This document shows, one piece after another, positions 11,834 to 30,452 of a stretch of 36,491 nt of DNA. Made by a program: the position numbers and the translations under genes. The DNA is from Kiritimatiellia bacterium (GTDB lineage Bacteria; Verrucomicrobiota; Kiritimatiellia; JAAZAB01), in NCBI GenBank assembly GCA_028715905.1, contig JAQUQV010000025.1:1-36491 (forward strand). The letters are read 5' to 3'. The notes below the pieces were generated by a model, which did not search any database, was not told where the DNA came from, and worked only from the letters and a program-made list of their open reading frames with translations. The first letter of the stretch is position 1. Every line of letters starts with the position of its first letter.

Positions 11834-12865
11834 ATGATGTATAAACTGGACATAACCAGGCTGGATGATTTTTTAAGCGCCATTTCGACGGGGCGCGATG
11901 TTTTCGCGCTTGAAGAAAGCGCGGGGCAGTATCATTTGACGCGCGCCGATTCGTGGCAGCCCGGCCGGCATACTTTGGGCGCGTTTCGCCAGGTGGAGCC
12001 CCTGAAAACGCTGGTGTTCCGTCCCCGCGAGTTTCTCGGGGAAATCGGCCGTTCCCGGCCGGAGGCGGTTATGCCGGAACGCATCGTAATCGGCGTGAAA
12101 AACTGCGACCTTTCCGCCCTCAAAATCCACGATCATGTTTTTCTCAACACGGAACCCGCGGACCCGCTTTACCGGGAAGCCCGTGAAAAAACCATAATAA
12201 TTTCCTGCGATTGCTCCGCCGCGCGCGAAGTGTGTTTTTGTCCGGCGGTCGGGGAACAGCCCTATCCGAAAGCCGGCTTTGACATCAATATTTCGCCGAC
12301 CGAGCATGGGTATCTCGTGGAGGCGGGCAGCGCGCGCGGCCGGCAATTGCTGGAGAAGGCCGGAAAATTTCTTGCCGCCGCCGATGACGCGCTCCTTAAA
12401 GAGCGCGACCGGAACCGCCGGGAACTCACCCGGAAAGTTTGCGCGCAGGCCGAGCAAAACGGGCTGGCTTGCGGCGCCGACCTGCGCCGCGCGGTTGAAA
12501 AATCGCAGGGGGGAAAAATATGGGACGACTTTGCGCTGGATTGCGTTGAGTGCGGCGCCTGCAACCTGATCTGCTGCACCTGCCACTGTTTCCTGCTGGC
12601 CGACGGCGAAAGTAAAAACAAGGCCTTTGCCCGCGTAAAACAATGGGACGCTTGTCTTTACAAGAATTTTGCCGCGGTCGCCGGCGGGGCCAATCCACGC
12701 CGCCACCGGGCCGAGCGGCTGTATAACCGGTTTGAAAAAAAATTCAGTTTCTTTCCCGAAATCCTCGGAATTTACGCCTGCGACGGCTGCGGACGCTGCG
12801 TTGAGGCCTGCACGGGCAAGATTGACATACGCAAGGTGCTGGGGAGAGCCGTTCATGAGTTGTAA
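11834..12865 (+). CDS. Sulfhydrogenase beta (HydB)/AsrA-like dicluster ferredoxin subunit
   Basis: A 343-residue iron-sulfur protein of the HydB/AsrA family, which carries electrons between a flavin subunit and a hydrogenase or sulfite reductase. Two C-terminal [4Fe-4S] motifs are complete: C237-C240-C243-C247 (CVECGACNLIC) and C316-C319-C322-C326 (CDGCGRCVEAC). More cysteines (C125, C127, C134, C136) lie in the N-terminal domain. It is the first gene of the hydrogenase operon and overlaps the next gene by 11 bp, so the two are surely translated together and probably form one module. ATGs at 11834 and 11837 are equivalent; no strong ribosome binding site is visible. Sulfite reduction is unlikely because no AsrC-type catalytic subunit is present. 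Confidence 0.85.
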   Translation: MMYKLDITRLDDFLSAISTGRDVFALEESAGQYHLTRADSWQPGRHTLGAFRQVEPLKTLVFRPREFLGEIGRSRPEAVMPERIVIGVKNCDLSALKIHDHVFLNTEPADPLYREAREKTIIISCDCSAAREVCFCPAVGEQPYPKAGFDINISPTEHGYLVEAGSARGRQLLEKAGKFLAAADDALLKERDRNRRELTRKVCAQAEQNGLACGADLRRAVEKSQGGKIWDDFALDCVECGACNLICCTCHCFLLADGESKNKAFARVKQWDACLYKNFAAVAGGANPRRHRAERLYNRFEKKFSFFPEILGIYACDGCGRCVEACTGKIDIRKVLGRAVHEL

Positions 12866-13679
12866 CCCTTACATGCCGGTTCCGGCCATACTGGAAAAGG
12901 TGATTCAGGAAACTTCCAACATCAAGACTTTCCTGGTGCGGCCGGCCAAACCGCTTGTCTTCAAGGCCGGCCAGTTTGTGGAATTAACCGTGCCCGGGAC
13001 GGGCGAGGCGCCCTTCACGCCCTCTTCTTCGCCGGCGGAGAGCGAAAAAATTGAGCTCACCATCATGCGCGTGGGAAAAGTGACCGAAAAACTGCACGCC
13101 CTGAAGCCCGGCGCGGAGCTGGCCGTCCGCGGTCCGCTCGGCCAGCCGTATCCCCTGGCAAAATATCACGGAAAGGAAATTCTGATCGTGGGCGGCGGCG
13201 TCGGCCTGGCGCCCTTGCGGGCCCTGCTCTTTGCGCTGCTGGAAGAGGTTGACAAATACAAGAAAATAATTGTCCGTTACGGCGCCCGGACCCCGGCTGA
13301 CATAGTTTACCGCAAGGCGGTTGAGGAAAGCTGGGGCCGAAAGGACTTGGACGTCATGATCACCGTTGACAAAAGCGATGCGGACTGGAAAGGCAATGAA
13401 GGCGTGGTAACGACCATCCTCGGGCCGAAGAAACTGACCTGCAACCCCGGCGAGGGGGTGGCCGTGGTCTGCGGACCGCCGATCATGATGAAATTTGCGA
13501 CCCTGGAAATATTAAAACTGGGTTACGCGCCGGAAAACATTTACCTTTCCATGGAAAAAAACATGAGCTGCGGTATCGGGAAATGCGGGCATTGCCGCCT
13601 CGGCCCTTATTACGCCTGTAAGGACGGCCCCGTGTTCACCTATGACCGCGTGAAAAATCTGAATAAAATCTGGGACTGA
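12855..13679 (+). CDS. Sulfhydrogenase gamma (HydG)/AsrB-like FAD/NAD(P)-binding subunit
   Basis: A 274-residue ferredoxin-NADP reductase-fold protein. In order: an FAD-binding barrel to about residue 100, the nucleotide loop GGGVGLAP (113-120), the CGPP motif (206-209) that closes the NAD(P) site, and a PyrK-type [2Fe-2S] site at C239, C244, C247 and C255. It should exchange electrons between NAD(P)H and the iron-sulfur subunit encoded just before it. The start at 12855 is chosen because it gives the normal family N-terminus; a longer frame from 12669 would run inside the preceding gene. Its presence makes pyridine nucleotide the likely soluble partner of the hydrogenase complex. Confidence 0.87.
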   Translation: MSCNPYMPVPAILEKVIQETSNIKTFLVRPAKPLVFKAGQFVELTVPGTGEAPFTPSSSPAESEKIELTIMRVGKVTEKLHALKPGAELAVRGPLGQPYPLAKYHGKEILIVGGGVGLAPLRALLFALLEEVDKYKKIIVRYGARTPADIVYRKAVEESWGRKDLDVMITVDKSDADWKGNEGVVTTILGPKKLTCNPGEGVAVVCGPPIMMKFATLEILKLGYAPENIYLSMEKNMSCGIGKCGHCRLGPYYACKDGPVFTYDRVKNLNKIWD

Positions 13680-13687
13680 ATTAAACA

Positions 13688-14173
13688 GTGGCAAAACGAT
13701 TGTTCATAGACCTGAACAAGTGCGACGGCTGCGATAAGTGCGCGGTGAAATGCGCGTACTTTTACCGTTCGCAGGCGGCCGATCACGGCGTCCTCGCCTT
13801 GCGCGAAATGGCGGCCTTTGCCCTGGTCTGCCGCCGCTGCGAGGATCCCAGCTGTGTGGCGGCCTGCAAATTTGAGGCATTGGAGCGGCAGGGCGACGGT
13901 GTGCTGAAGCGCCATAACCTGCGCTGCGTGAGCTGTAAAAGCTGCAGCCATGCCTGTCCTTTCGGGACCATTTACCCCGAAACGCTGCCGTTTTATGTCA
14001 GTGCGTGCGATTTCTGCGCCGCAGCGGACGGCGGGGAGACGCCGTGCGTGATCAGCTGCGCAAAGAAAGCCATTGAGTTCAGGGAAGTGGAAGAGTCGCC
14101 CAAGGACGGTGTTTTCCTGATCGGCGAGCGCCTCGCAGTGCGGGCGCCGCGCTGGGACAAGAAGGATGTGTAG
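13688..14173 (+). CDS. HycB-like protein with four [4Fe-4S] clusters
   Basis: A 161-residue electron-transfer protein with sixteen cysteines in four groups: 12/15/18/22, 48/51/56/60, 80/83/86/90 and 107/110/120/124. This is the layout of HycB, HydN and DMSO-reductase beta subunits. In formate hydrogenlyase the same type of subunit wires the soluble formate dehydrogenase to the membrane hydrogenase. Here it probably wires the HydB/HydG-like pair to the NuoI-like subunit. The start is GTG at 13688, 8 nt after the preceding gene; the next gene overlaps its end by 8 bp. No formate dehydrogenase gene is present nearby. Confidence 0.85.
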   Translation: MAKRLFIDLNKCDGCDKCAVKCAYFYRSQAADHGVLALREMAAFALVCRRCEDPSCVAACKFEALERQGDGVLKRHNLRCVSCKSCSHACPFGTIYPETLPFYVSACDFCAAADGGETPCVISCAKKAIEFREVEESPKDGVFLIGERLAVRAPRWDKKDV

Positions 14174-15104
14174 CCCCATGAATATTTTTTATCTGATTTT
14201 ACAGGTGTTGGTTTTTCCGGGGCTGTTGTTTGCCGCCGCAGCGGGGCTGGCGACGAGCTGGGTGGACCGGAAGGTTACCGCGTATGTTCAGATGCGCGTC
14301 GGCCCGCCTTTTCTCCAGCCGTTTTACGACGTGCTCAAGCTGATGATCAAGGAAACCTGCGTGCCGGCCGGCGCGGCGCGCTGGCTTTTCCTTTCGGCCC
14401 CGTTGCTCGGCATGGCGGGCGCGGCGCTGGCCTCAATGTTGATCTGGCGGGCGTTTCTCCCGCTCGGGCAGACTTTCAGCGGCGATATCATCGTGATTCT
14501 GTACCTGCTCACCATGCCCGCCGTTTCCGTGATCATCGGCTCGTTCGCCGCCCAAAACCCGCTGGCCTCGCTCGGCGGCAGCCGGGAGATAAAACTCCTG
14601 CTTTCGTATGAGCTTCCGTTTGTCCTGGCCATCCTGGTGCCGGTTGTCCAGACGCAAAGCATCCGGTTTTCCGACCTGCTGGCGGCGGCTCCGGCGGTCT
14701 ATGCGCCTTCCGGCGTCATCGCGCTGGTGGTTGCGGTTGTCTGCATGCAGGCCAAGCTGACGCTGGTGCCTTTTGACGCCCCCGAGGCCGAGACGGAACT
14801 GGCGGGGGGCGCCTACCTGGAATATTCGGGCCCGCCGCTGGGGATTATTAAATTGACGCGCGCCATGATGCTTTTCATAATGCCGCTTTTCTTGGTGGCG
14901 GTTTTCTGCGGCGGAATTGTTTTTGACAAGGGCTGGCTGCCGGTCTTGGGCGGAGTTCTGAAATACCTGGGGCTGGTGGTGCTGGTGATTTTAATCCGCA
15001 ACACGGCGCCGCGGGTCCGGATTGACCAGGCGGTCAGGTTTTTCTGGGGGCCGGCGACCCTCGCCGCCTTGGCGGCGGTTCTGGCCGCAATGATCGGATG
15101 GTGA
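14166..15104 (+). CDS. Membrane anchor subunit, NuoH/HycD/MbhM-like
   Basis: A 312-residue protein with about eight transmembrane helices. It has the family signatures WVDRKVTAYVQMRVGP near the N-terminus, SLGGSREIKLLLSYELPF in the middle, and the acidic loop FDAPEAETELAGG, which in complex I and Mbh lies at the junction of the hydrophilic arm and the membrane. It anchors the catalytic subunits and passes conformational or charge changes to the pump modules. Two starts are possible, 14166 and 14178 (MNIFYL); the first overlaps the preceding gene. It is one of the least variable parts of group 4 hydrogenases. Confidence 0.92.
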   Translation: MCSPMNIFYLILQVLVFPGLLFAAAAGLATSWVDRKVTAYVQMRVGPPFLQPFYDVLKLMIKETCVPAGAARWLFLSAPLLGMAGAALASMLIWRAFLPLGQTFSGDIIVILYLLTMPAVSVIIGSFAAQNPLASLGGSREIKLLLSYELPFVLAILVPVVQTQSIRFSDLLAAAPAVYAPSGVIALVVAVVCMQAKLTLVPFDAPEAETELAGGAYLEYSGPPLGIIKLTRAMMLFIMPLFLVAVFCGGIVFDKGWLPVLGGVLKYLGLVVLVILIRNTAPRVRIDQAVRFFWGPATLAALAAVLAAMIGW

Positions 15105-15108
15105 CACA

Positions 15109-15585
15109 ATGGGGTTTGCCGTAAATATTCTTACAAGATCGCTGAACGTGTTTCACCTCGGCGGCAGCGCGTGCAACAACTGCGACATTGAGATTCTGGA
15201 TACGCTTACGCCGCGTTATGATCTGGAACGGTTCGGCATCACGCTTGTCGGCAGTATCCGGCACGCGGATGTTCTCCTGGTCAGCGGCATTTTCAACAAG
15301 AAAGCCGCCGTCCGTCTGAAACGGGTATATCAGCAGGCGCCCCGGCCGATTTTTGTCGTTGCGATCGGCTCCTGCGCCTGTACCGGTAACATGTTCCAGA
15401 AATCGTACAACTGGGACGTTCCCCTTGACCAATATATTCCCGTTGATATTTATCTGCCGGGCTGTCCGCCCAAGCCCGAGGCGATGATTATGGCAATTCT
15501 AAAACTGGTAAACAAATTGCGCGGCGCGCCGCCGGATGCGTCCGCCGGCAAAAGCCGCGCCGCCAAACAGAAGAGAGGCGCATGA
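15109..15585 (+). CDS. [NiFe] hydrogenase small subunit, NuoB/MbhJ-like
   Basis: A 158-residue protein holding the proximal [4Fe-4S] cluster next to the nickel site. The ligands are visible: the CxxC pair C22/C25 (SACNNCDIE), C89 (GSCACTG) and C119 (PGCPPKPE). It is short and has a single cluster, as expected for group 4 enzymes and unlike the three-cluster small subunits of uptake hydrogenases. There is no Tat signal, so it faces the cytoplasm. The basic C-terminal tail of about 25 residues is poorly conserved. The next gene overlaps it by 4 bp. Confidence 0.92.
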   Translation: MGFAVNILTRSLNVFHLGGSACNNCDIEILDTLTPRYDLERFGITLVGSIRHADVLLVSGIFNKKAAVRLKRVYQQAPRPIFVVAIGSCACTGNMFQKSYNWDVPLDQYIPVDIYLPGCPPKPEAMIMAILKLVNKLRGAPPDASAGKSRAAKQKRGA

Positions 15586-16022
15586 AAAGGGAAGAAATAA
15601 TCAGCCTGATCAGGGAAAAACTGGAAGGCAAAATCATCAATTGGACCGAAAAGTCCCCCCGGCGGATATATGTTGAAGCCAGGCCGGAGGATATCCCCGA
15701 AATATCCCGCTGTTTGTTCCGCGATCTGGAGGCGCGTTTTTCAATCGCCACCGGCACGGACACGCCCTCGGCCATGGAAGTGCTTTATCACTGGGCCTTT
15801 GACCAGTGCGGGATGTTTTTCAGCGTGCGCACGAAGTTGAACCGGGAAAAACCGGAGATTGAATCCATTACCGCGATTTGCAGGGGCGCGGAATGGATTG
15901 AACGGGAGATGTGGGAACTGCTGGGCATCACCTTTCATAATCACCCGGACATGCGCCACCTGCTTTTGAGCGATGACTGGCCCGCGGGCAAATATCCGCT
16001 GCGGCGGGATTATGTGCGGTAA
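15582..16022 (+). CDS. Hydrogenase subunit, NuoC/MbhK-like (30-kDa subunit family)
   Basis: A 146-residue protein of the complex I 30-kDa family. The diagnostic C-terminal motif is present: WIEREMWELLGITFHNHPDM followed by L-x-x-DWP and a Y-P-L-R-R-D-Y end. It has no cofactor; it holds the large subunit in place. It lies between the small and large subunit genes as a separate gene, in contrast to HycE-type proteins, where this domain is fused to the large subunit. It overlaps the gene before by 4 bp. Confidence 0.9.
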   Translation: MKREEIISLIREKLEGKIINWTEKSPRRIYVEARPEDIPEISRCLFRDLEARFSIATGTDTPSAMEVLYHWAFDQCGMFFSVRTKLNREKPEIESITAICRGAEWIEREMWELLGITFHNHPDMRHLLLSDDWPAGKYPLRRDYVR

Positions 16023-16028
16023 AATATC

Positions 16029-17249
16029 ATGGCAAAGACAACCATAATACCAATCGGCCCTTATCACCCGCTCCAGGAGGAGCCGGAGTTTTTCAGGCTT
16101 CACGTGGAGGGCGAGAAAGTCGTCGGCCTGGATATTGAGATCGGCTATAATCACCGCGGGATTGAAAAACTGTCGGAATCCAAGACGTACGAGCAGACCG
16201 TTTTCCTCGTGGAGCGGATCTGCGGCATCTGTTCCACTTCCCATCCGCTGGCCTGTGTGCAGGCCGTTGAGGACGCCGGCGAGGTAAAAGTGCCGGAACG
16301 CGCGCTTTACATCCGGTCCGTGATCGGGGAACTGGAGCGCCTGCACTCGCATTTGCTCTGGCTGGGGCTGGCGGGGCATTTCCTGGGGTTCAATACGGTC
16401 TGGATGTGGGCCTGGCGCTACCGCGAGACGGTGCTTGAGCTGTTTGAATTGATCACGGGCAACCGCAATCATTACGGCATGATGAAACCCGGCGGCGTGC
16501 GGCGCGACATCAGGACGGAAGACCTTCCCGCCATTAAAAAAATGGTGGCCAATCTCAAGGGGCCGCTCTGTCTTTTCAGGGATGCGGTGACGGACGATCC
16601 CCTCATTCACGCCCGTCTGCAGGGGGTCGGGACGCTCACAAAACAACAGGCCATTGACTATTGCGCGTTGGGCCCGACTGCCCGGGCTTCCGGCGTGGCC
16701 CGGGACGTCCGCAAGGACCATCCCCACCTGGCGTATGGACGCGTTGACTGGAACATCATCACCGCAAAGAACGGCGATGTTTTTGACAAAGCCATGGTGC
16801 GGATACTGGAGATGCTTGAATCCGTGAAAATCATTGAACAGTGCCTGGAGGCGCTGAAAACCGTGTCCGGGCCCATTGATGCCAATCCGAAATCAATCAA
16901 GCCCGGAGAAGGCATCGGCACCTACGAGGCGCCGCGGGGGGAAGTGATCCATTATATTCTCAGCGACGGCGGCAACCGTCCTGCGCGGCACAAAATCCGG
17001 GCGCCAAGTTTTATGAACGTCGCCACTAACCAGACGACCGTGATCGGTCATTCGGTGGCGGATGCCACCATCATCCTGGCGGCGGTTGATCCCTGTTATT
17101 GCTGCACGGAGCGCATGGCCGCCGTTGACGCCGGCAGCGGCCGGCGGATTTGCTCATCCGGCGAATTAATCCGCCTGTCGCAGGAAAAAACCGCCAGGCT
17201 GAAAAAGGAGTTGGGGCTGGAAGGCCCGCGGCTTGCAATAAAAGCGTAA
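16029..17249 (+). CDS. [NiFe] hydrogenase large (catalytic) subunit, group 4, NuoD/MbhL-like
   Basis: A 406-residue catalytic subunit. Both nickel-binding motifs are intact: L1 is RICGICS with C65 and C68, and L2 is DPCYCCTER with C356 and C359. It is therefore a true hydrogenase, not a NuoD or an MbsL-type sulfane reductase subunit in which these cysteines are altered. The DPCxxCTER version of L2 is typical of group 4 (Mbh, Hyc, Ech). About 47 residues follow L2 as a normal C-terminal domain, so it is unclear whether a maturation protease is needed. No hyp maturation genes are in this window, so nickel-iron insertion must depend on genes elsewhere. Confidence 0.94.
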   Translation: MAKTTIIPIGPYHPLQEEPEFFRLHVEGEKVVGLDIEIGYNHRGIEKLSESKTYEQTVFLVERICGICSTSHPLACVQAVEDAGEVKVPERALYIRSVIGELERLHSHLLWLGLAGHFLGFNTVWMWAWRYRETVLELFELITGNRNHYGMMKPGGVRRDIRTEDLPAIKKMVANLKGPLCLFRDAVTDDPLIHARLQGVGTLTKQQAIDYCALGPTARASGVARDVRKDHPHLAYGRVDWNIITAKNGDVFDKAMVRILEMLESVKIIEQCLEALKTVSGPIDANPKSIKPGEGIGTYEAPRGEVIHYILSDGGNRPARHKIRAPSFMNVATNQTTVIGHSVADATIILAAVDPCYCCTERMAAVDAGSGRRICSSGELIRLSQEKTARLKKELGLEGPRLAIKA

Positions 17250-17255
17250 GATTTT

Positions 17256-19142
17256 ATGGAAATTCTGTTCAATTCCATGGTTCTGCCGATCGTGTTCCCG
17301 CTGGCCGCGGGCTTGCTTTGCCTTCTTTTGCCCGGCGCCTTTGACCGCGTCCGGCCGGCGCTGGCGGCTTCGGCCGCCGCCGTCACCTTCCTGATGGTGT
17401 GCGCCCTTTTGCTGGTCTGGAAGCGGATGCCGGGCGTTTCTCCGATGATTCTGGATGTGGCGCGGGGCAGTCTGCGGCTGGATCATCTCAATTCCTTCGT
17501 CCTGCTGCTGATAACCGTGTTCGGTTTTCTCACCGCCCTTTATTCCATGAAATACATGGCCGGGAAGGAACGCCGGCGGGAATACTACACCTATCTCCTG
17601 TGGACCATAGGCGTCTCCTGCGGCGCGGTCCTGGCCGACAATCTCATTATGCTTCTGGTTTTCTGGGGCATACTTGGATTCACCCTCTATGCCATGATCG
17701 GTATCGCCGGCTCGCCGGCGGCCGATGCCGCCAGAAAAAGCCTGATTATTGTGGGCGGCACGGACTGTCTGCTGATGCTGGGCGCGGCCATGGTGTGGAC
17801 TTTCTCCGGCTCGCTCGCGATCAGCGGCATCGGCCTGGAGCTGGCCGGATGGCCCCGGGTTGTTGCTTTTTTGTGCATCGCCGCTGCGGCCCTGGCCAAG
17901 GCCGGGGTGATGCCCTTCCATTCCTGGGTTCCCGATGCCGGCGAGAAGGGACCGGCTTCCGTCGCGGCGTTTCTGCCCGCCTCCCTTGACAAACTGATCG
18001 GCATTTACTTCCTGGTCCGGTTGACCACGGATTTGTTCGTGATGACTCCCGCCATGCGCGCTCTGTTGATGATCATCGGCGCGGGCACGATCATTTGCGC
18101 CGTGATGATGGCCCTGGTGCAGCACGACCTCAAGCGTCTGCTTTCCTATCACGCCGTGAGCCAGGCGGGATACATGGTTCTTGGCATCGGCACCGGCACG
18201 GCCCTGGGAATCGCCGCCGGCCTCTTTCACATGCTGAACCACGTCATTTACAAATCAGCCCTGTTCTTCTGCGCGGGTTCGGTTGAAAAAGAGGCGGGCA
18301 CGACGGACCTGGACCGTTTGGGAGGGCTGGCCAGGGCGATGCCGCTGACTTTTGTTTCCTTCCTGGTTGCCGCGCTCGCCATTTCCGGCATCCCCCCGCT
18401 GAACGGATTCTATTCCAAGTGGATGATTTACCAGGCCCTGGTGGATTCCGGCCGGAACGGGAACGGTCTCTGGGTTTTTTTGATGGCGGCCGCGATGTTC
18501 GGCTCGGCCCTGACCCTGGCCAGTTTTGTCAAGATACTGCACGCGGTTTTTCTTTGCAAGCCCTCCGCGGAACTGCGCCATCGCCATATCCGCGAGGCCG
18601 GTTTTTCCATGTGGCTGCCGGGAGTTGCGCTGGCTTTTGTTTGCGTCCTTTTCGGCGTGTTTGCGTATCAACTGCCGCTTTCCGGGATGATTTTTCCGGC
18701 CGTGGGCGGCCCCGTCCGGCTGACCGGAGACTGGCAGGCGGGGCTGGCGGCCGCGCTCCTGTTGTCGGCCTGCATCTTGGGGCTGATTGTTTATCTCCTT
18801 GCCGCAGTCCGTAAAGCGCGTCCATGCGATACTTACATCGGCGGGGAGATCATGGAGGAGGCAGTGCGCCACCGGCGGGGCGGCAAGGCGGAAAGCGTGG
18901 AGGTTACGGGGGTTGACTTTTACAAAACCATAGAGGACATGATTCCCCTGCGCGGGATTTATGAGGCGGCCCGCAGGAACCTGTTTGACATCTATGAGGC
19001 CGGCGGTAAATTTGTCTTTTACTTTATGGGCATCCTGCGGAGCGCCCACAGCGGGCTTCTGCCGATGTACCTTACCTGGGTGCTGGCCGGCCTGCTGTTT
19101 TTGTTGTGGATTTTATTTTTCGGTTTCAGGGGCATAACATGA
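17256..19142 (+). CDS. NuoL/Mrp-type ion-translocating subunit with C-terminal anchor helix
   Basis: A 628-residue membrane protein of the NuoL/NuoM/MrpA-D family with about 14 helices. Key features are HSWVPDAGEKGP in the ion-channel half, HDLKRLLSYHAVSQAGYMV with the conserved lysine, and HMLNHVIYKSALFFCAGSV. After the core there is an extra region from about residue 515: a hydrophilic link, an amphipathic stretch (VTGVDFYKTIEDMIPLRGIY) and a final helix. This resembles MbhI or the lateral-helix end of NuoL and MbsH', which clamp the pump to the anchor subunit. No separate mbhI gene exists in the operon, in keeping with a fusion. This is the first of two pump subunits. Confidence 0.88.
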   Translation: MEILFNSMVLPIVFPLAAGLLCLLLPGAFDRVRPALAASAAAVTFLMVCALLLVWKRMPGVSPMILDVARGSLRLDHLNSFVLLLITVFGFLTALYSMKYMAGKERRREYYTYLLWTIGVSCGAVLADNLIMLLVFWGILGFTLYAMIGIAGSPAADAARKSLIIVGGTDCLLMLGAAMVWTFSGSLAISGIGLELAGWPRVVAFLCIAAAALAKAGVMPFHSWVPDAGEKGPASVAAFLPASLDKLIGIYFLVRLTTDLFVMTPAMRALLMIIGAGTIICAVMMALVQHDLKRLLSYHAVSQAGYMVLGIGTGTALGIAAGLFHMLNHVIYKSALFFCAGSVEKEAGTTDLDRLGGLARAMPLTFVSFLVAALAISGIPPLNGFYSKWMIYQALVDSGRNGNGLWVFLMAAAMFGSALTLASFVKILHAVFLCKPSAELRHRHIREAGFSMWLPGVALAFVCVLFGVFAYQLPLSGMIFPAVGGPVRLTGDWQAGLAAALLLSACILGLIVYLLAAVRKARPCDTYIGGEIMEEAVRHRRGGKAESVEVTGVDFYKTIEDMIPLRGIYEAARRNLFDIYEAGGKFVFYFMGILRSAHSGLLPMYLTWVLAGLLFLLWILFFGFRGIT

Positions 19143-19705
19143 GTCTGCTGGTCATATTGCTGGTTTTGATGATCATTGGCGCCATCATCGCCATAGAGAC
19201 GACGAACCTGCTGTCGTCCATCGTCTGCATGGGCGCGGTCGGCATCATGATTTCCATCTTGTACCTGTTTATGGGGGCGCCGGACCTGGCCATTGCCCAG
19301 CTGGTGGTGGAGGTGCTCTGCCTGATTATCCTGATCCGTGCCACGATCAGCCGCGATCTCACTTCCGTGACGGGGGACCGCGAGTTTTTCGGAATGGTCG
19401 TTACGGCGGCGCTTGTGCTGGTGATTGCCGTCGCCGGCGTCATGATGTTTGCGGATTTCCCGGAGTTCGGCCGGCCCGTGATGGACCGCATCGCCGGGAC
19501 AGCCTCAGCCGAGTACCTTGCGCGCGGGCCGGAACAGGTTGTGCCGAGAAACATCGTCAGCACCCTGATCCTGAGTTACCGGAATAGCGACGCGCTCGGC
19601 GAAGTTGCCGTTTTATTCTGCGCGGTCCTTGGGGCGCTGGCGATTCTGCGGCGGCCGGCGCGCAAGCAGGAGATGGAAAAAGACCGGGAGGCGGATGCCG
19701 TATGA
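19139..19705 (+). CDS. MbhD/MbhE-like fusion subunit (DUF4040 plus MrpB-N-like)
   Basis: A 188-residue membrane protein. The first part (GAPDLAIAQLVVEVLCLIIL) is the DUF4040/MbhD signature, found in the C-terminal part of MrpA. The end (YRNSDALGEVAVLFCAVLGA) is the MbhE signature. In Pyrococcus these are two genes; here they are one continuous frame. The start at 19139 gives an ATGA overlap with the preceding stop. It belongs to the Mrp-type ion-translocation module. Confidence 0.85.
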   Translation: MSLLVILLVLMIIGAIIAIETTNLLSSIVCMGAVGIMISILYLFMGAPDLAIAQLVVEVLCLIILIRATISRDLTSVTGDREFFGMVVTAALVLVIAVAGVMMFADFPEFGRPVMDRIAGTASAEYLARGPEQVVPRNIVSTLILSYRNSDALGEVAVLFCAVLGALAILRRPARKQEMEKDREADAV

Positions 19706-20193
19706 ACGAAACTCCAAAGAAAGAGGGCATGGATCTGGTGGCCAAGTCGGTGGCCGGCTGGCTGAAGGGTTTTATTTTTCTCTTTGGCGTATATCTTGTG
19801 CTCCACGGCCACGAAACGCCCGGCGGCGGGTTTGCCGGCGGCGTCGTCATGGCCTGCGCGTTCATTTTGCTGACGCTCACGGAAGGCCAGCGCGTCGGCC
19901 TGGAGATTCTGGGCAAGAGTTTTGCCGCGAAACTGGCCAGTTTCGCGGCCCTGATCTTTCTGGCTGCCGCCGTCGCGGCGGCCTGTTGTCCGGGCGTTTT
20001 TTTAAATGAGCTTCCGGCGGGGGGACGTTCCGGAGTCATGTCTTTTTTCAGGGTCAACGTCATGTTCGTGTACGATTTTTCCCTGGCGCTCGTGGTGAGC
20101 ATGTTGATTTACGTGGTTTTCTCCGTCACGGCGGCCGTGCATGTGGCAATCAACGGCGGCAAACGGAGAATGATGCGGAAAAGGAGGGGTTGA
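19702..20193 (+). CDS. MnhB/MbhF-like antiporter subunit
   Basis: A 163-residue protein with four membrane segments and the MnhB/MrpB motif GHETPGGGFAGGVVMAC. It is a structural part of the Mrp-like sodium/proton translocation module. It overlaps the preceding gene by 4 bp and ends in a basic tail (KRRMMRKRR), probably on the cytoplasmic side. Confidence 0.9.
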   Translation: MNETPKKEGMDLVAKSVAGWLKGFIFLFGVYLVLHGHETPGGGFAGGVVMACAFILLTLTEGQRVGLEILGKSFAAKLASFAALIFLAAAVAAACCPGVFLNELPAGGRSGVMSFFRVNVMFVYDFSLALVVSMLIYVVFSVTAAVHVAINGGKRRMMRKRRG

Positions 20194-20194
20194 G

Positions 20195-20542
20195 ATGGAA
20201 TATGCCCTTTGCATGGTTTTGATTGCGGTCGGTCTCTACGGCGCGGTCGTCAAGAAAAATGTGGTCAAGATTGTCATCAGCCTGGTAATTATAGAGTTCG
20301 GGATCAATGCGCTCCTGGTGCTGATCGGCTACCGGGCCGCCGGCTGTGCCCCCGTGTTGAACCCGGGCATGACCGTGGCGACATTCACGGCCGGCGCCGT
20401 TGATCCTTTGCCGCAGGCCATGGTCATGACCGCCATCGTCATCAATCTCGGCCTGCTGATTCTGATGGTGGCGCTCTGTATAAGACTGTATGAACGTTTT
20501 GGAACATTTGACATCACGGAAATGCGGAGGTTGAAAGGATAG
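20195..20542 (+). CDS. MnhC/NuoK/MbhG-like subunit
   Basis: A 115-residue protein with three transmembrane helices of the MnhC/NuoK family. The motif DPLPQAMVMTAIVI, with conserved buried acidic and polar positions, is diagnostic. In complex I and Mbh this subunit carries part of the ion path beside the anchor subunit. It starts 1 nt after the preceding gene, preceded by GGAGGGG. Confidence 0.9.
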   Translation: MEYALCMVLIAVGLYGAVVKKNVVKIVISLVIIEFGINALLVLIGYRAAGCAPVLNPGMTVATFTAGAVDPLPQAMVMTAIVINLGLLILMVALCIRLYERFGTFDITEMRRLKG

Positions 20543-20543
20543 C

Positions 20544-22010
20544 GTGAGCAGCCTGCTTCCATTGTTTATCGCGGTTCCCCTTGGGGCGGCGTTTTTTATC
20601 CCGCTGGTGTCGCTGGCCCTCAAGCGGGTTCCCGACCTGCTGGCCAATGCGGTCATGCTGGCGCTGGCGGCGCTGGCATGTCTCGCCATCGGCCAAACCG
20701 GGGAATACGTTCCGGGAGGGTGGGGCGCGCACTTGGGCGCCGCCCTGCGGCTGGATGGACTGACCGTGTTGATGCTGATAATAATCAATACCATCGGCCT
20801 GGCCATGGCTATCTTTTCCGTTCAATACATGACCAGGTACACGTCCAAGCTCCGGTATTACAGCATCTTTCTCTGCATGGTTGCGGGTTTGAACGGCATT
20901 GCGCTTACCGGCGACCTGTTCAGCCTGTACATCTTCATGGAAATTGTGGCGATCAGTTCGTATGCGCTGGTGGCGTTTGGCTGCGAACACGACGAACTGG
21001 AGGCCGCCTTTAAATATGCCGTGCTTGGCACCGTGGCCTCCGCCTTCATTCTTATCGGTATTGCCTTGCTTTACGCAATGCTCGGCACTCTCAACATGGT
21101 TGAGGCCGCGGCCAGAATCGCCGCAGGCGGAATTAACAGGCCGCTCACCATGGCGCTTGGCCTTTTCATCTGCGGCTTTGGTCTGAAAGCCGCGCTCGTT
21201 CCCTTTCATGCCTGGCTGCCGGATGCGCACCCTTCGGCCCCGGCGCCGGTCTCGGCTATACTTTCGGGCGTGGTGATAAAAACCGCGGGAATTTATGTCC
21301 TGGCCAGGCTGGTTTTCAACGTGTTTTCGATCCAGCTTGTGCCGGATATGCTCCTGATTTTACGGACGCTCGGGCTGGTCTCCATGGTCGCGGGCGGCAT
21401 TCTTTCGCTCGGACAATGGGACATGAAACGGCTGTTGGCCTATTCCAGTATCAGCCAGATTGGATATATTGTGGTCGGATTGGGACTGGGCACGCCCCTC
21501 GGGCTGGTAGGAGCGCTTTTTCACATGCTCAACCACTCGGTCTTCAAATCGCTGCTCTTTCTTAACGCCGGCGCGGTTGAATATGCGACGGGCAGCCGCG
21601 ATCTCAAGAGCCTCGGCGGGCTGTGGCGCAACATGCCTTTCACGGCCAATATTTCGCTGGTGGGATCCATGTCGATTTCCGGGATTCCGCCTTTTAATGG
21701 TTTCTGGAGCAAGCTGATCATTGTGCTGGCCTGCCTTGAAAGCGGGCATCCCTGGCTGGCCCTGGCCGCGGTGGCGATGAGCCTGGCCACGCTGGCGGCG
21801 CTGTTGAAAATGCAGAAACACGCTTTTTATAACGACCATAAACCGGCCTCGGCCCTGGCCGCGGAAGTCCCCTTCCTGATGCGCGCGGCCATGATTCTGC
21901 TGGCGGTGTTATGCGTGCTTATAGCCCTGCTGGTTCTGGCGGGATTTCGCAACCCTTACCTGATCGGGCCGGCGGCGGATGCGCTCCGCGCCTGGGGCGG
22001 CGCCGGGTGA
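20544..22010 (+). CDS. MnhD/NuoN/MbhH-like ion-translocating subunit
   Basis: A 488-residue pump subunit with about 14 helices and no C-terminal extension. Signatures: EIVAISSYALVAFG with the conserved glutamate, HAWLPDAHPSAPAPVSAILS with the broken-helix channel, and a WDMKRLLAYSSISQIGYI helix with the conserved lysine. It is the second antiporter-like subunit of the operon and is closer to MnhD/MbhH than the gene at 17256. It starts with GTG, 1 nt after the preceding gene. Confidence 0.92.
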   Translation: MSSLLPLFIAVPLGAAFFIPLVSLALKRVPDLLANAVMLALAALACLAIGQTGEYVPGGWGAHLGAALRLDGLTVLMLIIINTIGLAMAIFSVQYMTRYTSKLRYYSIFLCMVAGLNGIALTGDLFSLYIFMEIVAISSYALVAFGCEHDELEAAFKYAVLGTVASAFILIGIALLYAMLGTLNMVEAAARIAAGGINRPLTMALGLFICGFGLKAALVPFHAWLPDAHPSAPAPVSAILSGVVIKTAGIYVLARLVFNVFSIQLVPDMLLILRTLGLVSMVAGGILSLGQWDMKRLLAYSSISQIGYIVVGLGLGTPLGLVGALFHMLNHSVFKSLLFLNAGAVEYATGSRDLKSLGGLWRNMPFTANISLVGSMSISGIPPFNGFWSKLIIVLACLESGHPWLALAAVAMSLATLAALLKMQKHAFYNDHKPASALAAEVPFLMRAAMILLAVLCVLIALLVLAGFRNPYLIGPAADALRAWGGAG

Positions 22011-22028
22011 CGATAGGAATATAGAGAC

Positions 22029-22550
22029 ATGAAACAAATCGCCATGTTTTTGATGCTGCTGCTCTTCTGGGTCCTGTTGGTCTGGCCCTTTGAGACGGTG
22101 GACGGCGTTTGCCGCATTGCCGGCTCGGAAATCCTGCCGGGCGCCCTTGTGGCTTTGCTGGTGACGTTGATCATGCGGAAAGATATTCCCCGAAGTTTCG
22201 CGACCTGGATCAATCCGGTGCGCCTCTTTTGGTTCGCGGCCTATCTGGCGGTGTTTGTTTTCTACGTGATCCGGGCCAACTTTGACGTGGCCTACCGGAT
22301 TCTGCATCCCGCCATGCCCATTCGCCCCGGAATTGTCAAGGTAAAAACCTCCCTGAAAACGGGCGCGGGAATGGCCATGCTTTCCAACGCCATTGCCCTG
22401 ACGCCCGGCACATTGACCTTGCACGCGGATAAGAATGGCGACCTTTACGTCCATTGGATCAATGTGAAAGCCGATGACGTTGCGGGCGCAACCCGGCATA
22501 TTGTCAGCCGTTTTGAATGGTTCATCAAGAGGATTCTGGAGCAGGCCTGA
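22029..22550 (+). CDS. MnhE/MbhA-like antiporter subunit
   Basis: A 173-residue protein: two or three N-terminal helices and a cytoplasmic domain with the MnhE pattern (NAIALTPGTLTLHADKNGDL, then HWINV). Its place after the D-type subunit is the usual Mrp order (B, C, D, E, F, G). An 18-nt gap separates it from the previous gene. Confidence 0.9.
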   Translation: MKQIAMFLMLLLFWVLLVWPFETVDGVCRIAGSEILPGALVALLVTLIMRKDIPRSFATWINPVRLFWFAAYLAVFVFYVIRANFDVAYRILHPAMPIRPGIVKVKTSLKTGAGMAMLSNAIALTPGTLTLHADKNGDLYVHWINVKADDVAGATRHIVSRFEWFIKRILEQA

Positions 22551-22581
22551 AAGATTGCGATGAAAAAGCGGAAAGGATAAA

Positions 22582-22842
22582 ATGTTTTTCATTTCTGCAT
22601 ACCTGGTTTTGCTGATCTGTTGCGGCCTGTGCCTTTACCGAGTGGGCCGCGGGCCGACTGCCGCGGACCGCGCCACGGCCATAGACATTTTCGGCATCGT
22701 GGTGCTCTGTTTTACGGCTTTGCTTTCGTTGAAAACCGGCCGGGCGTTCTACATGGATATCGGCATCGCCTGGGCGATTATCAGTTTTATCGGCACCATC
22801 GCGCTTGCCAAGCATTTGGAGGGGAGGGGGTTTGATGAGTAA
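22582..22842 (+). CDS. MnhF/MbhB-like antiporter subunit
   Basis: An 86-residue protein with three helices and the MnhF hallmark RVGRGPTAADRATAIDIFG. It is a small structural subunit of Mrp-type antiporter modules. The 31-nt gap before it is the largest inside the operon but carries a GGAAAGGA ribosome binding site, not a promoter. Confidence 0.92.
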   Translation: MFFISAYLVLLICCGLCLYRVGRGPTAADRATAIDIFGIVVLCFTALLSLKTGRAFYMDIGIAWAIISFIGTIALAKHLEGRGFDE

Positions 22843-23221
22843 CGTTATCGGGATGATTTTTGTTGTGATCGGGCTGGCCTTCAATGTGCTGGGCTGCGTC
22901 GGCATGATCCGTCTGCCCGACATATACAATCGTTTGCAGGCCGCCACCAAATGCGTTACCATGGGCACCTGTATGGTCATGCTCGGCGTGATAATCGCAT
23001 CCGGTTTCTCCGGTTCGGCGCAGTTGAGCGCGCGCTGTCTGATCTGCATGGTGTTTGTCCTGATCACCGCTCCCACCGCCGCCCATGCCCTGGCCCATGG
23101 CGCCTATTCGTTCGGCGCCCGGCTCTGGGAGAAAAGCGTTGTTGACAGGTACAAAGAGGACTTTCCGGAAATATCGCGCAAACACGAACAACCGCCCCCG
23201 CCGACACAGGAAACAAAATGA
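22835..23221 (+). CDS. MnhG/MbhC-like antiporter subunit
   Basis: A 128-residue MnhG family protein with three helices and the motif GMIRLPDIYNRLQAATKCVT. The start at 22835 overlaps the preceding gene by 8 bp and has a GGAGGGGAGGGGG purine tract upstream; a longer frame from 22805 has no support. It completes the set of Mrp-type subunits. The C-terminus is longer than usual, ending in a charged proline-rich tail. Confidence 0.9.
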   Translation: MSNVIGMIFVVIGLAFNVLGCVGMIRLPDIYNRLQAATKCVTMGTCMVMLGVIIASGFSGSAQLSARCLICMVFVLITAPTAAHALAHGAYSFGARLWEKSVVDRYKEDFPEISRKHEQPPPPTQETK

Positions 23222-23829
23222 AACTGCCCTGTCTTTTTCAATTCCGGATATTGAGTTTGGCGATCAGGTCTTTTTTTGCGCGGGCTTTCACCACCCGTTT
23301 TCCGGCCGCGCCCTATGAGCCCATCCGCCAGTTCAGGGGCCGCCCGCGCTATCATGCCGAGGACTGCATAGGCTGCGGGGCCTGCGCGGAGGTTTGCCCC
23401 GCCGAGGCCATCAAGCTGGTTGATGATTTGTCCGGCCCAAAACCGGCCCGCCGGCTGACCCAGTATCTGGATACCTGCATCCAGTGCGGCCAGTGCGAAA
23501 GATATTGCCCGACCGAAAAAGGCATAAAATTATCCAATGAATACGATTATGCCGGCTTTTCAAAATCCGATTTTGAAGAAAGCGTGGAAAAAGACCTTCT
23601 GCTCTGCGAATGCTGCGGCGCTGTGATCGCGCCTTTGGACCAGTTGCGCTGGCTGGTCAGGCGTCTTGGCCCGCTCGCTTTCACCAACCCCACCTTGATG
23701 CTCGTTTCCGCGCGCGAGCTGGCCGTGGTCGGCGAAAACGTGAAAATCGCGGCGGATAAAACCGTGCGCGCCGCGCGCGTGAGCATCCAATGCCCTAAAT
23801 GCCGGCGCAAGTCGGCGCTGGCGGTTTAG
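23218..23829 (+). CDS. NuoI/HycF/MbhN-like ferredoxin subunit
   Basis: A 203-residue protein with two [4Fe-4S] motifs: C50-C53-C56-C60 and C87-C90-C93-C97. They relay electrons from the soluble input module to the small subunit. Beyond them, C130-x-C-C133 and C192-x2-C195 form a pair of CxxC motifs that could bind zinc or iron, as in the tails of HycF and HyfH. The N-terminal 30 residues are hydrophobic and basic and may dock on the anchor subunit. It is the last gene of the operon, 4 bp overlapped with the MnhG-like gene, and its 3' end overlaps the convergent gene by 35 bp. Confidence 0.9.
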   Translation: MKLPCLFQFRILSLAIRSFFARAFTTRFPAAPYEPIRQFRGRPRYHAEDCIGCGACAEVCPAEAIKLVDDLSGPKPARRLTQYLDTCIQCGQCERYCPTEKGIKLSNEYDYAGFSKSDFEESVEKDLLLCECCGAVIAPLDQLRWLVRRLGPLAFTNPTLMLVSARELAVVGENVKIAADKTVRAARVSIQCPKCRRKSALAV

Positions 23830-25804
23830 CGATATCCGCGGGTGCGGAGAGGATTTCCCTGAGGCGGATGCGGCCCAGCCGCGCCTTTCCCCGGCCGTGA
23901 AAATATACGCGCGGTTCAACCTTCATTATTTTTTCCGCCGTGAAAGTCAGGCTGTGCCAGCCGCCGGTGGCCGCCCCTTGAATAACTGTTTGCGCGAGCT
24001 GCCGCAGGCCCGCATCGCTGGCGATTTCAAGGGTAACGACAGGTTCCGACGCCGCGCCGCCGGTAACGAGCTCAAACGATGCTTCAAACTTTCCCCGATA
24101 AACCGGCCACTGAACGCCGAATGCCATCCAGCCGGCTTCATCGCGCGCCGCGTCGGCTTCCCGCGCGGCGCGTTTTTTTTGCGCATGGCTTTCAATCGGC
24201 CGGCCGGTCCGGCCATGCATGAGATCAGGTCTGGCTTCCAGTTCATAGGCAAGAACTTCGGGCCGGACCGGAATCAGGCGCAGTTCTTTGCCGGAAAGCC
24301 GGTACGGAATTCGTTCCGGGAAATGCGCCAGGAGCAATTTGTCCATTTTATTCAAGGATCTCGCCACCAAGGGACGGCTTTTCAGGCCGTGCCGGTTGAG
24401 GAAGAAAAAGCTGTGCGTGTTTGAAAAAGGGACCGATTCGTCTACCAGGATCAAAGCCTGATCGGGAGCGCTCCGGAATAACGCCAGATATTTGCTGATA
24501 GTTCCGTATTCTTTTTGCAAAACTTCTTTCTGCCCGGCCATGAAGTAAACGCTCGCTCCCAGGACCGCCGCGCCGGCCGCGATCAGCGCCGCCCGGCGCG
24601 CCCCGCGCCGCGGGATGCGGTCAATTAAACGCGCGAATCCGACCGCGGCCGGCACGATGATCAGCGGCAGGGTTTCAAAAAAATAAATGGGGCCGGTTTC
24701 ATGGCGGCCATAGTAATAAAAAAACACATAGGCGGTCCAGACCAGGCCGGCGCCGGACAGCATCAGGGCGCAGGGGGAATGAATCCGGCGCTTCGTTTGG
24801 CCGCATAAGCGGGTCTCCCGGGGCCACATGGTCAGCGCCAACAACAGGGCGATTACCAGCGAGCCGCGGAAACCGAAGAGCCAGCGGTCATACAGGTTTA
24901 AATTCCGGGCCAGGTTCGTCAACCCCTTTAACGGCGTGTGCATTACCTCGCTGTAGCGGGTATGTTTCAGGCCAAAACCGGGAGTTTCGCTGGGATCGTA
25001 ATACAGATAAGTCAATGTAAACGGGTCGCCCAGCGCGCAGTAGTTATAGGCCAGCAGAACCAGCATGAAGCCGGCGGCCACGCCGGCGAAAGAGATAATG
25101 CCGCGCCAGTATGTTTTGTCGCGCCAGAGACTTTTCAATTGCATTAATACGTACAGGCCGAAAGGCAGCGCCAGCCAGACGGCGGTATAACTCCGGTTAA
25201 TATACAGCCAGCCCCAGCCGGCCGCCGCCAGGGCCGCGAAACGCGCGGCGCCCTCGTATTGCCATCGGAAAAAACCATACAGAAACAGCGCGGTTGCCAG
25301 CAGACCGCTCGTATGACTCAGGAGCGTTCCGTGCGTAAACAGAAAAAACGGCGAGAGCAGGAGCATTACGCCGGCCGCCGTCATTGCGCGCGCATTGAAA
25401 AGGCCCGCTGTGCGGGCGATGAACCAGAGGGAAAGTCCGGCCGCCAGGGCCGCCATGAGATGCGGCCAGCCGGCCGCGCATCCCGGCGTCAGCCAGAAAC
25501 TATGCCCGGGGGGATAACGCGACATCCAGCCGGCGCGCTCATCCATAATGAACATTTCCTGGGCGAAGGCGTTCGGGATTGGCGGCAGGGGCCTTGATAT
25601 TTTGCCCTCAAGGAAAGCGTATGCCTGGAAAACATAGCTGGTTTCGTCGGTGGTGATCGGCGTGCGCAGGAAAACGAATTCATAAATCAGGGCCGTGATG
25701 AGCGCCGCCAGGATGGCGAAAAATACAACCAGCCGCCCGGAGTAATCGGGGCGCGTAATGGCGCCGGGCGTTAAATTTGCGGAAGAATATTGAAGCATTA
25801 GCAA
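23795..25804 (-). CDS. GT39/ArnT-like membrane glycosyltransferase
   Basis: A 669-residue GT-C-type protein. After the first helix comes the acidic motif TPITTDETSYVFQAYAF, which fits the conserved Asp-Glu of PMT/ArnT enzymes in the first extracytoplasmic loop. About eleven more helices follow, to residue 420. The C-terminal 250 residues form an extracytoplasmic domain with beta-rich end segments. Such enzymes move a sugar from a polyprenyl phosphate to a protein or lipid. It resembles the protein at 191-2845 in layout, without close sequence identity. Its stop lies 35 bp inside the end of the hydrogenase operon, tail to tail. Confidence 0.7.
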   Translation of the reverse strand: MLMLQYSSANLTPGAITRPDYSGRLVVFFAILAALITALIYEFVFLRTPITTDETSYVFQAYAFLEGKISRPLPPIPNAFAQEMFIMDERAGWMSRYPPGHSFWLTPGCAAGWPHLMAALAAGLSLWFIARTAGLFNARAMTAAGVMLLLSPFFLFTHGTLLSHTSGLLATALFLYGFFRWQYEGAARFAALAAAGWGWLYINRSYTAVWLALPFGLYVLMQLKSLWRDKTYWRGIISFAGVAAGFMLVLLAYNYCALGDPFTLTYLYYDPSETPGFGLKHTRYSEVMHTPLKGLTNLARNLNLYDRWLFGFRGSLVIALLLALTMWPRETRLCGQTKRRIHSPCALMLSGAGLVWTAYVFFYYYGRHETGPIYFFETLPLIIVPAAVGFARLIDRIPRRGARRAALIAAGAAVLGASVYFMAGQKEVLQKEYGTISKYLALFRSAPDQALILVDESVPFSNTHSFFFLNRHGLKSRPLVARSLNKMDKLLLAHFPERIPYRLSGKELRLIPVRPEVLAYELEARPDLMHGRTGRPIESHAQKKRAAREADAARDEAGWMAFGVQWPVYRGKFEASFELVTGGAASEPVVTLEIASDAGLRQLAQTVIQGAATGGWHSLTFTAEKIMKVEPRVYFHGRGKARLGRIRLREILSAPADIAKPPAPTCAGI

Positions 25805-29571: not shown

Positions 29572-29592
29572 GGGTGTGCTCCGATCCGGGTT

Positions 29593-29615
29593 GTATTTTT
29601 TTAAAAGAAAAATAC
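29593..29615. promoter_or_regulatory. Inverted repeat in the divergent hydrolase/AraC promoter region
   Basis: Perfect 8-bp arms (GTATTTTT / AAAAATAC) with a 7-bp centre, in the 100-bp space between the hydrolase gene and the AraC gene. It could be an operator or part of overlapping promoters. Low-complexity A/T content makes chance formation possible. Confidence 0.35.
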
Positions 29616-29636
29616 TTGAAATAATCATATTTCGCA

Positions 29637-30452
29637 ATGGACAAAAATATCATTTTTGTGTATTTTCATGTCATGGAGCTTTATTACGACCCAAAAGTGC
29701 GTCTTTTGTGCATAAAAAAGTGCTCTTTGCGAAAATGGCATTACGACCATCCCAAACTTCCCTTCTGGCGGTTGTATTGGGGCAGCGGGTCGGCCGCGAC
29801 CATCCGCTGCCTGGGCGAAATTGTTGCGCTGACCTCAAAAAGGATTGTGCTGGTGCCGCCGAATACCGAGCTCAGTCAGCGGATGGCGCAGGGACCGGTA
29901 ACGCATTTCGGCGTGCATTTCCTGGCCGATGCTCCGTTTAACCGACTCCATTCCAAGCTTTATGTATTCAAGGCCGAGGGAAATATGCCTGACGCCATAA
30001 AAGCCATGCCGCTGGATGATGAGGACTGTTTAACAAACAATCCTATTCTAATCACGGCCGTGCGCGGATTGATTCATGTATTGCTCTCAAAAATTCCGGC
30101 TGAAGACATGCCGCCTGTGCAAATTCAGGAACATCTGGCCAAAAGCATGACTTTTATTGAAGAGAATCTCCAGCGTTCGCTCTCCTATCTGGAACTGGCG
30201 CGCCAGATGAATATGAGCGTGAGCACGATGTTGCGTCTCTACCAGCGCGAATTGGGGCTGTCGCCGCATGAATATCTATGCCAAAAACGCATTGAAAAAG
30301 CCTGCCTGCTTATTCATGACCGGAGAACAAGCATTGAACAGATCGCGGAGGAAACCGGCTTTTGCGACCGCTATCATTTCACCAAGGTTTTCAGCAGGAC
30401 AACCGGCCAGAGTCCGGCCCGCTTCCGCGCTTATGGCAGGAAGCGAATTTGA
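29637..30452 (+). CDS. AraC-family transcriptional regulator
   Basis: A 271-residue regulator. The N-terminal domain is a divergent cupin-type sensor (KWHYDHPKLPFWRLYWGSGS). The C-terminal 100 residues carry both helix-turn-helix motifs (SYLELARQMNMSVSTMLRLY and IEQIAEETGFCDRYHFTKVF) and the family end TGQSPARFRAY. It is divergent from the GH20-related gene and probably controls it. The start may be 29637 or 29673 (MELYYDPK); neither has a clear ribosome binding site. It ends 73 bp from the convergent GHL10-like gene. Confidence 0.87.
   Translation: MDKNIIFVYFHVMELYYDPKVRLLCIKKCSLRKWHYDHPKLPFWRLYWGSGSAATIRCLGEIVALTSKRIVLVPPNTELSQRMAQGPVTHFGVHFLADAPFNRLHSKLYVFKAEGNMPDAIKAMPLDDEDCLTNNPILITAVRGLIHVLLSKIPAEDMPPVQIQEHLAKSMTFIEENLQRSLSYLELARQMNMSVSTMLRLYQRELGLSPHEYLCQKRIEKACLLIHDRRTSIEQIAEETGFCDRYHFTKVFSRTTGQSPARFRAYGRKRI

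Follow-up and report, generated by a model that had tools for sequence, protein, structure and literature searches.

A widespread 16-gene operon for a Mrp-linked group 4 [NiFe] hydrogenase with a putative NAD(P)H input arm in a Kiritimatiellota genome

Positions 11834 to 23829 of a 36,491-nucleotide stretch of DNA from a Kiritimatiellia bacterium (the window; contig JAQUQV010000025.1 of assembly GCA_028715905.1) contain an operon of 16 genes. These genes probably encode a single membrane-bound, energy-converting, Mrp-linked group 4 [NiFe] hydrogenase, in which an arm of HydG-, HydB-, and HycB-like proteins would deliver electrons from NAD(P)H and the reaction would be coupled to ion pumping. 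The gene set, its conserved order, and the ligands of the iron-sulfur clusters and the NiFe site were read from the sequence, and from them we infer the single complex, the electron path, the donor, the direction, and the ion. An original prediction, made from the DNA alone, had described a complex linking NAD(P)H/ferredoxin and H2 to ion transport through an exceptional mix of modules in a bacterium of the Planctomycetes-Verrucomicrobia-Chlamydiae group. The hydrogenase, the input pair, and the Mrp arm were all recovered, and the host, a metagenome-assembled genome (MAG) that is 96% complete, does belong to that group, in the Kiritimatiellota. However, the mix is not exceptional, because the identical gene set is widespread.

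The [NiFe] hydrogenase and its input arm

The large subunit contains both NiFe cysteine pairs, in the motifs L1 (ERICGICSTSH) and L2 (DPCYCCTER), and the four cysteines (C65, C68, C356, and C359) were retained in 79 of 79 relatives. Three complex-I-like homologues, one on the host's own contig C16 and the others in genomes G041 and G050, lack the L1 and L2 motifs. Because all four metal-binding cysteines are present, the protein is a hydrogenase, as predicted for group 4, and a non-hydrogenase complex-I-like protein, the outcome that the original prediction had named as fatal to itself, was ruled out. Homologues of its complex-I-like membrane partners NuoH, NuoB, NuoC, and NuoI are all in the operon. 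The best PDB matches of the large subunit were Pyrococcus furiosus MbhL (286 bits) and Escherichia coli HycE (277 bits), and complex I subunits scored lower. MbhL in the structure stops at the L2 arginine, whereas the large subunit extends 44 residues past it (Arg362). This apparently cleavable tail makes proteolytic maturation likely, and the genome has the maturation genes for one HycI-type protease and HypD.

The large subunits of the family formed one supported clade (82 rows), apart from Mbh, Hyc/Hyf, and the other group 4 forms. MbhL lay outside this clade, separating the family from the P. furiosus-type Mbh (group 4d), and HycE and HyfG paired with each other outside it, separating the family from Hyc/Hyf (group 4a). 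There was no support for descent from the Hyf or Mbh type in this tree, which was a quick one with long reference branches, that of MbhL included, and unsure deep placements. Because the scan patterns were drawn from the clade, its edges were not sampled. The enzyme does not belong with the sulfhydrogenases (group 3b), with which it shares HydB and HydG alone, its large subunit being group 4-like. The large subunit is 67% identical to that of "Candidatus Saelkia tenebricola" (Omnitrophota), whose hydrogenase is given as group 4g and Mrp linked in the accessible part of its description (PMC8542988). In HydDB, group 4g is loosely defined, has no established function, and is putatively ferredoxin coupled. 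Large subunits from proteobacterial MAGs (loci L053, L054, L057, L058, and L059) nested beside those of Kiritimatiellota and Verrucomicrobiota, by either transfer or misbinning.

The HydB/HydG-like input pair that had been proposed was confirmed by the homology of both proteins to the beta and gamma subunits of P. furiosus sulfhydrogenase 1 (PDB entry 9nez); they are also homologous to AsrA/AsrB. HydG retains its FAD- and NAD-binding domains, and its four 2Fe-2S cysteines and C200 were invariant (54/54). Fifteen cysteines of HydB were invariant in up to 50 relatives, and the HycB-like protein has 12 to 16 conserved cysteines. The NuoI-like subunit, a HycF-type protein, has eight invariant cluster cysteines as well as invariant C130, C133, C192, and C195, and the NuoB-like subunit has invariant C22, C25, C89, and C119. 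Thus, the ligands of the iron-sulfur chain from HydG to the NiFe site, invariant in 50 to 79 relatives, make a continuous wire possible, along which electrons may pass from NAD(P)H to the NiFe site.

Gene order across genomes

Relatives were collected by scanning one genome per species, and the best 80 of 265 were retained. Every one of the 34 complete loci had the full set of 16 genes in identical order, and these loci represented at least 11 phyla: Kiritimatiellota, Lentisphaerota, Fibrobacterota, Pseudomonadota, Bacillota, Omnitrophota, Auribacterota, Eiseniibacteriota, Latescibacterota, Elusimicrobiota, and Hydrogenedentota. All loci are metagenome assemblies, and the phylum labels are those of the MAG records, some of which may be misbinned. 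This recurrence rules out both a one-off oddity and a chance clustering of genes. Of the loci with enough DNA covered to be testable, 45 of 47 had genes for HydB, HydG, and HycB upstream, and the full Mrp set lay downstream in 45 of 49. The nearest loci, in Kiritimatiellae MAGs, were 88% identical. Within the host phylum a close HydG was present in only 3 of 195 genomes in a spread sample, which indicates patchy inheritance or transfer.

Some members of the family lack the Mrp set. Loci L073, L093, L109, and L119 encode HydB-HydG-HycB, where this region was covered, together with NuoH-B-C-D, either one or two antiporter-like subunits, and NuoI; they may mark stages in the gain or loss of the Mrp module. 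In L109 (1994-2623) and L119 (1842-2468), NuoD and the antiporter genes are separated by a gene for a soluble helical protein that by eye resembles PhoU, and a gap of ca. 450 to 620 bp is found at the same junction in several other Omnitrophota loci. An insert between HydG and HycB in a Nitrospirota locus (L060) was considered as a molybdopterin enzyme, by comparison with the Saganbacteria locus described below, and rejected; its first gene is pilin-like by eye.

The host genome contains other clusters of related genes. Contig C4 (30000-49000; L003) carries a second cluster of the group 4 [NiFe] type, whose CxxC motifs are intact and which has no HydG/HydB. This cluster has three antiporter-like subunits followed by NuoB-C-D-H-I and carries the only HycI gene of the genome; ca. 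3 kb downstream is another Mrp-like set (E, F, G, D/E, B, C, and D). In two genomes of the same family (L024/L025 and L026/L027), the 16-gene operon and a second group 4 cluster are on one contig, convergent and ca. 4 kb apart. A third, complex-I-like cluster on contig C16 (L043) has a NuoD-like protein without either NiFe cysteine motif.

Ion pumping, electron donor, and alternative explanations

The predicted full Mrp-type set was evident from Pfam matches as homologues of MrpA to MrpG, with MrpA split over two genes. In MrpA, MbhD/E-like parts follow a NuoL-like domain, and the NuoL-like gene followed by an MbhD-MbhE fusion is therefore a split MrpA that makes up one complete Mrp module. 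The original prediction had listed a NuoL-type pump and a full Mrp set; both are present, but they are best read as one module rather than two.

The NuoL-like subunit has Gly138 at the site of the conserved glutamate in transmembrane helix 5 (TM5), and no residue within seven positions of it is acidic. The glycine is shared by each of the 61 close relatives in the family and by seven of eight divergent, lower-scoring homologues; the eighth, from an Mrp-less Elusimicrobia locus (L073), has glutamate. The subunit keeps Lys215 in TM7, Asp245-Lys246 in TM8, and Lys388 in TM12. The TM5 glutamate is present in E. coli NuoL, NuoM, NuoN, HycC, HyfB, HyfD, and HyfF, in four antiporter subunits on contig C4, and in the operon's own MnhD-like protein. 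The MnhD-like subunits had it in 59 of 59 cases scored, and every relative scored retained the Glu/Lys pair. We know of no earlier report of the loss of this glutamate from a NuoL-like subunit, a point at which no literature search was aimed. The substitution offers a natural test of the role of the Glu-Lys pair in complex-I-type pumps.

In the proposed mechanism NAD(P)H would reduce HydG at its FAD and 2Fe-2S centers, and electrons would pass through HydB, HycB, and the clusters of the NuoI- and NuoB-like subunits to the NiFe site, where H2 would be made. The redox reaction would alter the conformation of NuoH/C/D, and the split Mrp module (NuoL-like, MbhDE, and MrpB to -G) would use this movement to transport Na+ or H+. 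The c subunit of the host ATP synthase has the Q...ES...Y pattern of Na+-type rings but leucine where Na+ rings have threonine. By textbook values, the potential of the H2/H+ couple is -414 mV at 1 atm and ca. -266 to -296 mV at 1 to 10 Pa. At such low H2, NADPH (ca. -370 mV) makes ca. 75 to 105 mV available for each pair of electrons, enough to move about one ion, whereas NADH (ca. -280 mV) yields little at 1 to 10 Pa. With so small a potential difference the enzyme would be expected to operate near equilibrium, its direction set by H2 removal. Energy would be conserved only where partner organisms kept H2 low; otherwise, the ion gradient would be spent pushing H2 out, or the reaction would reverse and H2 would reduce NAD(P)+.

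The unbroken operon, the NiFe cysteines, the kinship with 9nez, the invariant ligands, the fixed gene order, the separate clade, and the HycI and HypD genes all support the interpretation of the 16 genes as one complex. The lack of any match above cut-off for an FeFe hydrogenase or for RnfC in the 96%-complete host genome was also counted in its favor. Several points weigh against it. No biochemical data on any member of the family were found, H2 formation from NADH gives hardly any energy, or none, except at very low H2, and the residues of HydG do not tell a preference for NADH from one for NADPH. The HydDB class points to another donor, HydG and HydB could act toward sulfur compounds given their AsrAB and sulfhydrogenase kinship, and a pump with no TM5 glutamate in its NuoL-like subunit may depart from the textbook mechanism.

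An alternative that we consider unlikely, but deserving of weight, is an ordinary ferredoxin:H+ enzyme of the Mbh type. Ferredoxin would dock on the HycB- or NuoI-like subunit, both of which have ferredoxin-type clusters, and HydG/HydB would be a side branch through which ferredoxin and NAD(P)H also exchange electrons by confurcation or transhydrogenation. The ferredoxin-coupled role that HydDB gives to group 4g would agree with this, as would the best large-subunit match to the ferredoxin-dependent MbhL. However, classical Mbh to our knowledge has neither HydG/HydB nor HycB, yet in 45 of 47 loci the pair accompanies the hydrogenase, and HydG has a single FAD domain with no sign of a dedicated bifurcating flavin. 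It is very unlikely that HydB and HydG form a soluble enzyme that is merely cotranscribed with an Mbh-type hydrogenase. Cotranscription alone does not prove a complex, and the CO dehydrogenase arm of a comparable cluster in Thermococcus onnurineus was mostly soluble (PMC4731540), but the gene order is fixed across at least 11 phyla, and between HydG and the membrane genes sits a protein of the HycB type, which in formate hydrogenlyase is the linker. Moreover, the only other NiFeSe_Hases match in the host genome is the second group 4 subunit, and therefore there is no soluble hydrogenase for HydG/HydB to serve. Exchange of electrons between the input arm and polysulfide or sulfite, which would make the complex an H2-linked, ion-pumping sulfur reductase, is highly improbable. 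Among NCBIfam models HydG scored best with AsrB, HydB also matched AsrA, and 9nez, which both proteins match, is a sulfhydrogenase; on the other hand, all AsrA/AsrB scores were under the curated cut-offs and the operon has no AsrC (siroheme) subunit.

If the 16 genes encode one NAD(P)H-linked hydrogenase complex, then a single machine would do what Rnf and an Mbh do in two. We offer only tentatively the broader proposal of a widespread respiratory enzyme in which NAD(P)H, H2, and the ion gradient meet in one complex and one antiporter-like subunit has a modified ion path. To judge from a large, strictly syntenic, Mrp-linked branch whose arm is of the NAD(P)H type, the ferredoxin assumption may not hold for much of group 4g. 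If so, metabolic models of Omnitrophota, Kiritimatiellota, and other uncultured anaerobes would change.

Operon layout and relation to known systems

Sixteen plus-strand open reading frames (ORFs) tile the interval, and the claim of a continuous set with gaps of at most 31 bp held, the widest being that from 22550 to 22582. Identities assigned with Pfam and NCBIfam profile searches agreed gene by gene with the predicted ones for all 16 (Table 1). Overlaps are mostly 4 to 8 bp; one of 37 bp at 19106 becomes 4 bp if the start is the in-frame ATG at 19139. The start of HydG is probably at 12873. The operon is preceded, at a distance of 107 bp, by a gene for a spermine-synthase-like membrane protein (9288-11726), and its downstream neighbor is on the opposite strand, giving natural-looking borders. 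Large ORFs without a Pfam match lie nearby at 23795-25804 (-), 27295-29637 (-), and 191-2845 (+).

Table 1. Genes of the hydrogenase operon, with positions in the window
Product	Position	Strand	Evidence or remark
HydB-like (sulfhydrogenase beta/AsrA-like) Fe-S subunit	11834..12865	+	Fer4_22; 9nez_B E=5e-38
HydG-like (sulfhydrogenase gamma/AsrB-like), FAD, NAD(P), 2Fe-2S	12873..13679	+	FAD/NAD-binding and DHODB 2Fe-2S; 9nez_C E=5e-51; AsrB 215 bits
HycB/CooF-like, ligands for four 4Fe-4S clusters	13688..14173	+	Fer4_11
NuoH/MbhM-like membrane anchor	14166..15104	+	NADHdh E=5e-64
NuoB/MbhJ-like small subunit, proximal 4Fe-4S	15109..15585	+	Oxidored_q6
NuoC/MbhK-like	15582..16022	+	Complex1_30kDa
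[NiFe] hydrogenase large subunit (MbhL/HycE/NuoD-like)	16029..17249	+	Complex1_49kDa and NiFeSe_Hases; L1/L2 motifs
NuoL/MrpA-N-like antiporter subunit, TM5 Glu to Gly138	17256..19142	+	Proton_antipo_M
MbhD+MbhE fusion in one gene (MrpA C-terminal part)	19106..19705	+	MbhD and MbhE Pfam domains
MrpB/MnhB-like	19702..20193	+	MnhB
MrpC/NuoK-like	20195..20542	+	Oxidored_q2
MrpD/MbhH-like antiporter subunit, TM5 Glu intact	20544..22010	+	Proton_antipo; 6cfw_H E=9e-78
MrpE-like	22029..22550	+	MNHE
MrpF-like	22582..22842	+	MrpF_PhaF
MrpG-like	22829..23221	+	PhaG_MnhG_YufB; short MrpF overlap, start 22805 or 22829
NuoI/HycF-like 2x4Fe-4S subunit, C-terminal CxxC...CxxC element	23218..23829	+	Fer4; HycF-type model 107 bits

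As had been claimed, Mbh, Hyc/Hyf, and the other named enzymes each differ from the operon. P. furiosus Mbh has one antiporter-like subunit, and its MbhD and MbhE are separate genes. It shares with the operon the NuoB/C/D/H/I core and a Mrp-type arm (6cfw). E. coli Hyc/Hyf shares the HycB-type linker and the HycF-type C-terminal element but has formate dehydrogenase as its input and no Mrp subunits. P. furiosus sulfhydrogenase 1, whose beta and gamma subunits are the homologues of HydB and HydG, is a soluble group 3b enzyme without a membrane arm.

No named complex with this 16-gene order was found in the open-access literature, subscription papers being mostly uncovered. The "Ca. Saelkia" MAG (L070) has all 16 genes in the same order, and the accessible part of its description does not mention the HydB-HydG-HycB arm (PMC8542988). 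A group 4 hydrogenase region of Saganbacteria RX5A, termed "enigmatic," contains, like the operon, the hydrogenase, Mrp subunits, cooF, asrA, and asrB and, unlike it, a molybdopterin oxidoreductase; its closest sequences were from Omnitrophica and Zixibacteria (PMC6349859). Compared by description, this locus is probably a cousin of the family. The 16-gene Mrp-Mbh-Codh cluster of T. onnurineus follows the same three-part plan of input enzyme, hydrogenase, and Mrp, with CO dehydrogenase rather than HydG/HydB as the input (PMC4731540); HydDB places such formate- or CO-linked Mrp enzymes in group 4b. Thus, the operon falls in an enzyme class that is already known, the Mrp-linked group 4 hydrogenases, but uncharacterized, in which the family-wide NAD(P)H-type arm and the loss of the NuoL glutamate stand out.

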